Source: a virus
Strand: one strand, 5' to 3'
Virus record (IMG/VR): IMGVR_UViG_3300029957_000045
Coordinates: 1-22,230 of that record
Length of the DNA stretch: 22,230 bases
Part shown: piece after piece, positions 18,377 through 20,926 of the stretch
Position numbering within the stretch: position 1 is the stretch's first letter
Layout: each line of letters begins with the position of its first letter
The notes under the pieces: model-generated
Told to the model about the DNA's origin: nothing
Seen by the model: the letters and a program-made list of their open reading frames with translations, nothing else
The model's database searches: none
Program-made: the position numbers and the translations under genes

Positions 18377-19766
18377 AATTGCCTCCGTGGCTGGTTGAAT
18401 TTCTGAACGTCTTGGTGAAACCCTTATCGATACAGTGCCCGCGATAGCGCAGCACGTTGGCCAGCAACGCCCGATCATGGTGGCTATGCGTTGCCTGTCG
18501 CAGGAGGCCGAAATAGCTATTGGCTGTCTCGAACAACTCGTCAGCTGGCATCTGGCGCGTGCGGCTGATCGCCTCATTGAATGCCCGGCGGCGGGTGACT
18601 CTGTGCCACGGCTTGATCACCTGGCCAACGAAGTCCACTCCACGATCAATAGGCTGCAAAATAGTCTTGGATGGATTCAGACGCAGGCCGAGGTGCTGTG
18701 GCAACCACGCATCGATGTCGGCGCGAGCAACGTTCAACCACTGCGGTGATGCGTGCAGCAGCACCATATCGTCCACATAGCGCACGTAGTGGCGGCAATG
18801 CAGATCGTGCTTGATGTGCTGATCCAGTTCGTCCAAGAGGACATTGGCGAAGAATTGGCTGCTCAGATTTCCGATGGGTAACCCAAGGTGCGTAGGCTGG
18901 CTGGTGAGCCGCTTATGCGGCGGTACGCGATCCAGTAGCGCAGGATCGCCCTGGAACTCGAAGTTCTGACGCGGATCGTGGAACAACACCAGTTCGGCCA
19001 GATCCATCCACCAGCCATCGATGCGCTTAGCCAACAGATCGTGCACCACCCGCTTGTCGATGGAGACGAAGAAGTTGGCGAGATCCAGCTTGAGGTAATG
19101 CGCTGGCTTGCTCCAGTTCTGCGTAAGGCTGCGGATCTTCGCTTCCAGCCTTTGGGCACCGTACAACGTGCCGCGTCCAGGAATGCAGGCGCAACTGTCT
19201 GCGATGAAGCCTGCGTATAAACGCGGGGCGATCCGGTTATAGAGCAGGTGGTGCACGATGCGGTCACGAAACTCTGCTGCCCATACCTCGCGCGGCTTCG
19301 GGCGAGTGATGACAAAACAGATGCTCTTGCCGGGCCTATACGAGCCGTTGCGCAGCTCTTCATCGAGCTGGCACAGGTTGCGTTCCAGATTCATCTCGAA
19401 AGCCAATGCGCTGGCGCTGTTGCGCTTTGTATCGCGGCAATTCAGATAGGCTTGTACTAGCTCTTCAAAAGAAAAATCAGCATGGTGGCACTGGGGTTGA
19501 GCTGCGGACGGCCACAGCGCGGCACTTGTTGTTGGTGTTATTCCAATTCTGGTTTCCATTGTTGAAGTTCTGATACCAGGCGGAACCTGCCGAACGCTGC
19601 GGTTAATCGTGCTATCTACGTCACCCCGCCGACTGTCGCGATCAGTCAGCGAGGAAACTGCGCCAGACCTGCCTTGGGCAACTAACCCAGCGGTATCTGC
19701 GGTGCGCATGGCGGTGGCCTGTATGGACAGCGGCACGACCAGATCAACATTTCGCACAGTCGTCAT
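18363..19766 (-). CDS. DGR reverse transcriptase; template repeat lies inside its reading frame
   Basis: From the ATG at 19766 the protein has 467 residues. The RT domain runs from about residue 98 (FSFEELVQAYLNC) and has RPKPREVWAAEFRDR at 155-169 and motif A LDLANFF at 227-233 (Asp 228). The DGR-type motif LPIGNLSSQ is at 296-304, YVDD at 330-333 and LNPSKT later, so catalytic residues are intact. DGR RTs copy a template RNA with adenine errors, with Avd, and place the cDNA in target genes. The ATG overlaps the avd stop (ATGA). There is no ATG, GTG or TTG in frame between template and RT domain. Residues about 56-89 are the template read in another frame, and residues 1-55 show no known domain. 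An ATG inside the template (19559) is a weaker alternative start. Confidence 0.93.
   Translation of the reverse strand: MTTVRNVDLVVPLSIQATAMRTADTAGLVAQGRSGAVSSLTDRDSRRGDVDSTINRSVRQVPPGIRTSTMETRIGITPTTSAALWPSAAQPQCHHADFSFEELVQAYLNCRDTKRNSASALAFEMNLERNLCQLDEELRNGSYRPGKSICFVITRPKPREVWAAEFRDRIVHHLLYNRIAPRLYAGFIADSCACIPGRGTLYGAQRLEAKIRSLTQNWSKPAHYLKLDLANFFVSIDKRVVHDLLAKRIDGWWMDLAELVLFHDPRQNFEFQGDPALLDRVPPHKRLTSQPTHLGLPIGNLSSQFFANVLLDELDQHIKHDLHCRHYVRYVDDMVLLHASPQWLNVARADIDAWLPQHLGLRLNPSKTILQPIDRGVDFVGQVIKPWHRVTRRRAFNEAISRTRQMPADELFETANSYFGLLRQATHSHHDRALLANVLRYRGHCIDKGFTKTFRNSTSHGGNYGNQ
19502..19599 (-). repeat. DGR template repeat (TR), 98 nt
   Basis: This block matches VR1 and VR2 over 98 nt. 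The outer 24 and 27 nt are identical in all three. The inner 47 nt hold 23 adenines (coding strand), and all differences to the VRs (13 and 11) fall on these. In the target frame the core reads YQNFNNGNQNWNNTNN, rich in AAC/AAT codons as in known DGR templates. A TAA just 5' in the target frame shows it is not itself a target gene. It lies inside the RT reading frame (different frame). Confidence 0.97.
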
Positions 19767-20131
19767 GGCCTTGACCCTGACGAAGCGGGCGACATTGCGT
19801 ATTTGCGCCATCCACCAGCCTGCTTGCCGACCTTGTCGGTCAACGCGATGGCCTTGGCATATTGGCCGGTCGAGATGAGCAGCTTGTCGCGCGATAGGCG
19901 CAACAGCAGCTCGGCAACCTGCAACCGCTCGATCAATGCGTCGAGATGCGGCGTCTTCTCTCTCGCACAGTTGGCGCGGAAGATCAGCGTCACGATCTCT
20001 ACGCACTCATCCCGCAATTTGCTACCGATGCTTTGCTTGAAATCTCGCCGCATGTTCGTAGACAAATCCGTGATGGCGTCGAGCAGGTCGTAGGCCACTT
20101 TGTAGATGGGCAGTTCTGAGGTGATTGCCAT
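19763..20131 (-). CDS. avd: Avd-type accessory variability protein
   Basis: This 122-residue all-helical protein starts MAITSELPIYKVAYDLLDAI, then has NMRRDFKQSIGSKLRDECVE and LDALIERLQVAELLLRLSRD. This fits the four-helix-bundle Avd family, whose barrel-shaped pentamer binds the DGR template RNA and the RT. Length is close to the roughly 128 residues of the Bordetella phage protein. It lies between VP1 and the RT and overlaps the RT start by 4 nt (ATGA). The ATG at 20131 is preferred over a TTG at 20152; the ribosome site is weak (GAG well upstream), suggesting low expression or coupling to VP1. Confidence 0.92.
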   Translation of the reverse strand: MAITSELPIYKVAYDLLDAITDLSTNMRRDFKQSIGSKLRDECVEIVTLIFRANCAREKTPHLDALIERLQVAELLLRLSRDKLLISTGQYAKAIALTDKVGKQAGGWRKYAMSPASSGSRP

Positions 20132-20155: not shown

Positions 20156-20524
20156 TTAAAGGGGTACGCTGCGGACGGCCACAGCGCGGCACTTGCCGTT
20201 GGTGGTATCCCAACCCTGGTACCCAAAGCTGAAGTGCTGACACCAGGCGGAACCTGCCGAACGCTGTTCGCCAGACCAGTACCAGTCCGGCGTGAATGTC
20301 TCTCCCAGATTGGCAAACAGCAGGGATTGCTCGCGGCGCGTGGGCAACCTGCCGCCCGCGTCCTCGGCAAACTTGACGGCCTCGTCCCAGCTCACGGCTT
20401 GTGCCTCACCAGGCAGCCGGATGATGTGCTGATCAGGCTCGCCGTTCTTGCCGAGCAGCAGCCCGGCGTACTGTTCGCCTGCCTTGAGCAGGGATTCCAG
20501 AAATGCTTTCTTTGCGTTGTTCAT
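20156..20524 (-). CDS. DGR target protein VP1 (C-type-lectin-like, DUF1566-like)
   Basis: This 122-residue protein contains WDEAVKFAEDAGGRLPTRRE (46-65) and DWYWSGEQ, then the variable block SAWCQHFSFGYQGWDTTNGK and the closing strand CRAVAVRSVPL. These are typical of DUF1566-like/C-type-lectin-like folds used by DGR targets, where the variable residues form the ligand face. Nine codons differ from the template: residues 95, 97, 99, 100, 102, 104, 106, 107 and 110. GGAGG lies 5 nt before the ATG. No signal peptide or membrane span is seen, so it is probably cytosolic or virion-carried. The ligand is unknown. VP2 lies 9 nt upstream and shares the KAGE-x-Y and DWYWS-x-EQRSAGSAW segments. Confidence 0.93.
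   Translation of the reverse strand: MNNAKKAFLESLLKAGEQYAGLLLGKNGEPDQHIIRLPGEAQAVSWDEAVKFAEDAGGRLPTRREQSLLFANLGETFTPDWYWSGEQRSAGSAWCQHFSFGYQGWDTTNGKCRAVAVRSVPL
20169..20266 (-). repeat. DGR variable repeat VR1 (in VP1)
   Basis: 98 nt aligned to the template without gaps; 13 differences, all at template adenines (coding strand). The 27-nt 3' end is identical to the template and GC-rich, as expected of the initiation-of-homing side. After it VP1 has CCCTTTAAC and later TTCAGCAT, shared with VR2 but not with the template. Confidence 0.96.
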
Positions 20525-20533
20525 TGCGACCTC

Positions 20534-20926
20534 CTAATTGATGAATGCTGAAGTGTTAAAGGGAACTCTGCGGACGGCCACAGCGCGGCACTTGAAGTTG
20601 GTGGTATACCAATCCTGGCTCCCATCGCTGAAGCTCTGAAACCAGGCGGAACCTGCCGAACGCTGTTCGCTTGACCAGTACCAGTCCTTCTTAAAACGAT
20701 CAGGCAGGTGCTTGTGGAACATGGATTGCTCAACGCGATCCGGCAGATCACCGCCGATGGATTTGGCCCAATCCATCTGGGTCTGCCAGTCGGCATCGTC
20801 GTTGTCTCCGTCGAGGATGATGGTGTGGTGACCGGTGCCGTCCGGACGGATGAATGCTCCGCCGTAGATCTCGCCTGCCTTGAGTTCGGGAATGGTGAAT
20901 TTGCTTGGTTTGGTTGCTTGGTTCAT
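20534..20926 (-). CDS. DGR target protein VP2 (C-type-lectin-like, DUF1566-like)
   Basis: This 130-residue protein starts MNQATKPSKFTIPELKAGEI, then has WQTQMDWAKSIGGDLPDRVE, DWYWSSEQ and the variable block SAWFQSFSDGSQDWYTTNFK, and ends CRAVAVRRVPF plus eight extra residues (NTSAFIN after F). The fold and role are as for VP1. Nine variable codons are at residues 96, 98, 100, 101, 103, 105, 107, 108 and 111. AGGAG lies about 6 nt before the ATG. It leads the DGR block and follows the zinc-motif early gene by 9 nt, so it is driven by the early transcript. The N-terminal two thirds differ from VP1, so the two probably have different fixed parts and share only the diversified face. Confidence 0.93.
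   Translation of the reverse strand: MNQATKPSKFTIPELKAGEIYGGAFIRPDGTGHHTIILDGDNDDADWQTQMDWAKSIGGDLPDRVEQSMFHKHLPDRFKKDWYWSSEQRSAGSAWFQSFSDGSQDWYTTNFKCRAVAVRRVPFNTSAFIN
20568..20665 (-). repeat. DGR variable repeat VR2 (in VP2)
   Basis: 98 nt aligned to the template without gaps; 11 differences, all at template adenines. It differs from VR1 at many of the same positions with different bases, so the two were mutated at least partly independently. The 3' flank CCCTTTAAC...TTCAGCAT is shared with VR1. Confidence 0.96.

Follow-up and report, generated by a model that had tools for sequence, protein, structure and literature searches.

The DNA analysed here (hereafter the window), a virus record of 22,230 nt, includes phage head and packaging genes assigned by PHROG and carries a diversity-generating retroelement (DGR) on its minus strand in the order targets, avd, RT-15, template repeat (TR), and reverse transcriptase (RT). 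In such elements an RNA template is copied so that a receptor gene is mutated. The first target gene (20534–20926, minus strand) encodes 130 aa with a weak Pfam match to the C-type-lectin-like Lcl_C, and the second (20156–20524, minus strand) encodes 122 aa with a weak Lcl_C/FGE-like match; the Lcl_C and FGE matches lie below the curated Pfam cut-off. The VRs are at the C-terminal ends of the targets, at about 20665–20568 and about 20266–20169 (both minus strand), respectively. The TR (19502–19599, minus strand) is 98 nt long, and when it was compared with the VR of target 1, 11 mismatches were found over the 98 nt, every one of them at a TR adenine. The product of avd (accessory variability determinant; 19763–20131, minus strand) was matched by Pfam bAvd (PF22296, 48.9 bits, cut-off 40) and by PHROG Avd. 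The RT was recognised by Pfam RVT_1 and PHROG reverse transcriptase, its domain starts with FEELVQAY from 19469 and contains the YVDD motif, and the reverse transcriptase chain of PDB 8ub7 matches it at 6e-38. A DGR-type reverse transcriptase, an adenine-specific TR/VR pair, and Avd are all present in the window. The phage DGR is active-looking, and the A-specific differences between TR and VR suggest mutagenic homing of cDNA into the VR. One TR serves two tandem small targets (20156–20926, minus strand), each with its own VR, and paired targets seem to be present in relatives as well. The first 14 nt of a small winged-helix-like ORF (18376–18059, minus strand), which is preceded by a GGAGG, overlap the end of the RT, and the ORF possibly belongs to the cassette operon.

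The interval between avd and the TR is filled by the structured RNA RT-15 (Rfam RF03018; 19600–19794, minus strand; cmscan 160.6 bits, cut-off 82, model positions 1–192), which extends from the avd end to the base exactly before the TR and abuts it. The original prediction, in which an ATG overlapping the avd stop opens an RT frame that continues across the TR into the RT, was correct to the base. This ATG (ATG_A, 19766–19764, minus strand) shares bases with the avd TGA (19765–19763) in the form ATGA and lies in the 5′ hairpin of RT-15. From it the minus-strand frame runs from 19766 to 18363, 467 codons without a stop, passing through RT-15 and the TR; the 467-aa product has about 98 residues from RT-15, the TR, and the linker, followed by the DGR reverse transcriptase domain. 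The TR covers about 33 codons of this frame, offset by one base from the VR/target frame, and the linker from the TR end to the RT domain (19470–19501, minus strand) is about 32 nt long and in frame. The claim that no in-frame ATG, GTG, or TTG lies between the template and the first conserved RT residues was also confirmed for the interval from the TR end (19502) to 19469. Beyond what the original prediction described, RT-15 occupies the avd-to-TR interval and two further in-frame ATGs are present: ATG_B (19709–19707, minus strand), inside RT-15, in its junction, and preceded by AGG at 19720–19718 (AAGG or GAGG in most relatives), and ATG_C (19559–19557, minus strand), within the TR. With several in-frame ATGs, the window has more than one candidate for the exact start.

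One open frame in GC-rich DNA is weak evidence by itself. RT relatives were collected from viral contigs, GTDB genomes, and phage records and reduced to 292 loci with distinct RTs. RT-15 was found in 259 of the 292 loci and adjoined the RT in 250, and both the TR end and the RT anchor could be placed in 243 loci with distinct RT sequences. Between the TR and the RT, a stop in the RT frame was found in none of the 243 loci, and stops in the other two frames were found in 18 and 99 loci. The distance from the TR end to the RT anchor took 13 lengths in one phase (239/243) and a single length in another (4/243). When the TR-to-RT gap was traced on the RT tree, parsimony counts based on a single FastTree tree gave at least 55 changes of length but only 2 of phase; assuming that 2/3 of indels shift the frame, the binomial P for this phase retention was about 3e-23. 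Two controls were taken from the same DNA. The avd frame changed phase 47 times relative to the RT frame, and the distance from ATG_B to the 3′ RT-15 motif underwent 30 phase changes among 65 length changes. This indicates that RT-15 itself tolerates frame shifts, and that neither shared ancestry nor RNA structure accounts for the TR-to-RT phase. A chance open frame was ruled out by the phase counts over the 243 loci. The TR lies over the 5′ end of the RT ORF, as in DiGReF group 3, and the frame is kept in relatives.

A sequencing error or a programmed frameshift was also considered, in which the RT would be made from the out-of-frame ATG at 19483 by a slip on a T run, since one extra T puts this ATG into the RT frame. 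Relatives at 64–85% identity share the layout and the phase and do not depend on ATG 19483, however, and the phase of the RT frame upstream of 19483 is conserved. Because the phase is common to relatives, we rejected a frameshift from this ATG or an assembly indel, which we regard as extremely improbable.

According to the original prediction, close homologues with a start codon just before the RT domain and stops in the upstream frame would mark the open frame as chance. Such an arrangement was found only in minorities. The 4 out-of-phase loci, which represent 2 losses of phase, have a new ATG in the linker, 12 codons before the AY anchor; the coincidence of both losses with this ATG fits a model in which the RT depends on the upstream frame. 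Two further loci in which the TR end could not be placed look like these 4. The other minority consists of loci in which another gene separates the TR from the RT, and there the RT has a start of its own. For example, in locus L005 (84% RT identity) a methyltransferase-like gene (2246–2980; labelled from motifs, with no Pfam match) lies between the TR and the RT and is fused in frame to the leader and TR, and the RT has the new start MNTMPDF-TFEELV. In locus L235 (1126–2481), the leader and TR continue in frame into a PAPS-reductase-like protein, and the RT has its own ATG. Locus L028 was rejected as an example of this coupling because its inserted methyltransferase frame is broken and stops are present in the leader.

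The distribution of start codons was then compared among the 243 loci. No ATG, GTG, or TTG was present between the TR end and the RT domain in 198 loci, and CTG, ATT, ATC, and ATA were also missing from the linker in 183. In DGR RTs of the outgroup, which lack RT-15, an ATG was found within 30 codons in 33/38 cases, compared with 41/243 of the RT-15 loci. These numbers bear on the possibility that the open frame is a by-product of the conservation of RT-15 as RNA and of target codons in the TR, and that the RT is made from a non-AUG codon near its domain. It is true that RT-15 is conserved as RNA, that the TR evolves with the VR frame, and that, of the three frames, the RT frame alone is open in the motif GACGTAGATAGC. 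This reading nevertheless leaves unexplained why the unconserved linker lacks stops and holds its phase through all its changes of length, and why phase is lost only together with the gain of an ATG of the RT's own; RNA constraint alone permits frame shifts, as in RT-15, and the four non-AUG codons named above are missing from most linkers. We consider it highly improbable.

All of the 243 loci have a start codon somewhere in the open frame. The only start codons of the frame are inside the TR in 49 loci and solely upstream of the TR in 38. ATG_B is in frame and open to the RT in 136 loci; these have no stop up to the RT (by definition for the RT-15 and TR portions), and stops abound in their other two frames. 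Within RT-15 or the TR, stop codons are confined to loci without an in-frame open ATG_B, and only part of these loci have them. In 97 of these 107 loci an ATG is present in the TR or just before the RT, and the other 10 have it elsewhere in the open frame. An independent-pairs test of ATG_B loss against ATG_C presence had too few well-supported pairs and lacked power. A Shine–Dalgarno (SD)-like match of at least 4 bases precedes ATG_B in 77% of cases, compared with 5% at random positions, and an SD is found at ATG_C in 2% of cases. ATG_B as a universal start would be too simple, because it is kept as RNA in 57 of 76 loci where it is out of frame and it is lost in the close loci L008 and L012.

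A start within the TR, at ATG 19559 in the window, would mean that ribosomes read only about half of the TR and that the open frame upstream of this ATG is incidental. The 49 loci that can start only in the TR speak for this, and the RT of phage Cruim01 is annotated so. However, ATG_C is missing from the close loci L003, L006, L007, L009, L010, L012, and L013, is almost without an SD, and cannot serve the 38 loci whose starts are all upstream of the TR; moreover, the upstream frame in the clade of the window stays in phase through varied indels. A start within the TR is therefore unlikely in the window, in our opinion. Annotation gives no consistent answer for the RT-15 family in GenBank. The RT of Burkholderia phage Magia (L082) starts at ATG_B, with an RBS, those of Shewanella phage QDWS (L083) and Pseudomonas phage LPPA56 (L085) start inside the RT domain, and that of Pseudomonas phage Cruim01 (L086) starts inside the TR. 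Magia and Cruim01 have the same RT-15/TR/RT layout as the window, and their starts are known from annotation only.

In the 14 closest loci (76–100% RT identity; the RT of L002 is identical to that of the window, leaving 13 distinct relatives), the avd stop forms part of an ATGA that gives the open RT frame an ATG, and the 15th locus differs. The distances from the ATGA to the RT range from 291 to 363 nt, and despite many indels all are multiples of 3 and free of stops. ATG_B is absent from L008 and L012, ATG_C is lacking in the TR of the seven loci named above, and in L009 (80% RT identity) a start is possible only upstream of the TR. With ATG_B lost in two loci and ATG_C missing from several, the ATGA is the most constant candidate in this clade. 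The predicted ATGA coupling of avd and RT was thus conserved in frame in the closest relatives of the window, but it is not general (41/241 loci), and a test of the ATGA correlation on independent branches lacked power.

The peptide encoded upstream of the RT domain was examined for signs of selection. In the RT-15 part, substitutions at positions 1, 2, and 3 of the RT-frame codons numbered 672, 642, and 746, respectively, which is nearly even; selection on the leader at the protein level was rejected, as the third-position excess is only slight. In the TR, substitutions are most frequent at RT position 2, where the wobble position of the target frame falls. This pattern indicates that RNA structure and target codons, and not the RT peptide, shape the leader sequence. 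Conservation of the 5′ frame at the protein level, which had been proposed as a check, was not borne out: the reading frame is kept among relatives and the peptide is hardly constrained. Thr, Arg, Ser, and Ala are abundant in the leader, whose mean net charge is about +3. The leader is predicted to be disordered: AlphaFold gave a pLDDT under 50 for residues 1–81 of the ATG_B product and placed no secondary structure ahead of the first helix of the RT. The alignment with PDB 8ub7 begins at residue 80 of the same product. The leader peptide looks like a tolerated passenger. It would remain on the mature enzyme, probably with no essential sequence-specific role.

In the DGR of Bordetella phage BPP-1 (mtd-avd-TR-spacer-brt), the spacer between the TR and brt forms a structure, brings in bRT-Avd, and provides the adenine used for priming (PMC12875486). 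The window resembles BPP-1 in its RT family, Avd, adenine-specific TR/VR pair, and order of target, avd, TR, and RT. Unlike BPP-1, its TR and RT domain are separated by about 32 nt, which appear to be translated and have no conserved structure, and the TR has its structured RNA on the 5′ side; no structured spacer of the BPP-1 type lies between TR and RT. Rfam RT-15 was matched by 15 of the 16 relatives scanned, and the remaining one, L029, matches the derived nucleotide profile instead. Among relatives, the consensus structure of RT-15 has an energy of −45.2 kcal/mol and 14 pairs with two-sided changes, whereas the region 3′ of the TR showed no conserved structure (consensus −1.65 kcal/mol and a single such pair). 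Taken alone, the window has an unexceptional MFE fold (z −0.73), and the evidence for RT-15 structure is the consensus fold, not the MFE of a single sequence. Synonymous variation in the 5′ part of the RT was normal among relatives, with no reduction. A possible 4-bp pairing between the TR end and the RT varies too little for a test, and no unusual fixation was seen for its Cys codon. It had been proposed that, with the usual spacer absent, its function would fall on RT coding sequence. This is unsupported, and a spacer RNA hidden there was rejected for want of synonymous constraint and of a conserved fold, the covarying RNA being RT-15.

Because conserved structure lies on the 5′ side of the TR and none on its 3′ side, we propose that RT-15 replaces the spacer as the recognition RNA, so that RT and Avd would recognise RT-15 instead of a 3′ spacer RNA. 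No function for the RT-15 family was found in the searches made, and this analysis gives it a plausible role. RT-15 is catalogued as non-coding RNA, whereas in this system its 3′ part additionally codes for RT and contains the probable start codons of the RT. Weak RT-15-like matches (19–21 bits) were observed 270–330 nt upstream of remoter RTs in L153, L154, L155, L161, and L290, and they may be a remote version of RT-15. The RTs of these five loci have their own ATG at −16, and that of L290 also has one at −12.

Taken together, we are confident that the RT has no start next to its domain, and that ribosomes very probably begin upstream and read RT-15 and the TR in frame into the RT. Reading-frame conservation, the absence of stops, the logic of the start codons, and the presence of structure on only the 5′ side of the TR were established by comparison. 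In the window, translation would most likely begin at 19766, the ATG at the avd stop, or at 19709 inside RT-15, and the ribosomes would pass through RT-15 and then the TR, in frame, to the RT. The TR would then have three roles: it would be template RNA, would donate target codons in one frame, and in another frame would be mRNA for an RT leader segment of about 33 residues. That the template doubles as mRNA for the RT N-terminus had been part of the original prediction, and the conserved phase of relatives, the stop-free linker, and the start-codon distribution argue for it. Alternatively, the leader could be a regulatory peptide whose translation tunes the folding of RT-15, with the RT made by re-initiation. 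Start codons do lie within RT-15, and in loci with ATG_B out of frame a short ORF_B stops upstream of ATG_C. Re-initiation could take place in any frame, whereas the frame leading from the TR into the RT is kept, and we find this alternative improbable.

If RT and Avd recognise RT-15 and not a 3′ spacer, translation and template use of one RNA would compete. Both upstream start codons are inside RT-15, so that assembly of the RNP and translation may exclude each other. We speculated, tentatively and with more doubt than conviction, that RT-15 is a switch: the mRNA would be translated through its own template until RT-Avd binds RT-15, halts translation, and turns the RNA into a cDNA template. 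The reverse transcriptase LtrA binds DIVa of the lactococcal Ll.LtrB group II intron at a site that overlaps the LtrA translation start, which allows autoregulation. The analogy concerns the possible switch only, since Ll.LtrB is a group II intron and has no TR/VR. If the switch is true, the recognition RNA of RT and Avd would be 5′ of the template, and translation through the template would be part of homing control.

The layout is already known from annotation. TRs that overlap RT ORFs were described in 2012, from annotated ORFs, as DiGReF structural group 3 (PMC3521204). The open literature searched contained no evidence of conserved translated dual coding through the TR in connection with RT-15. 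Such coding would place three overlapping constraints on one 98-nt element, which would have to serve as RNA template, as target codons, and as RT leader codons in another frame, and ribosomes would be forced to share one RNA with the reverse transcriptase. This would mean that many RT starts in the clade are mis-annotated, for example those placed inside the RT domain in phages QDWS and LPPA56, and that cloning the RT from the conserved domain alone would leave out part of the product made by the phage. The RNA recognised by RT and Avd in these systems may be the 5′ RT-15 and not a 3′ spacer, and the clade in which the template appears to be translated as the N-terminus of the RT spans both phages and bacteria.
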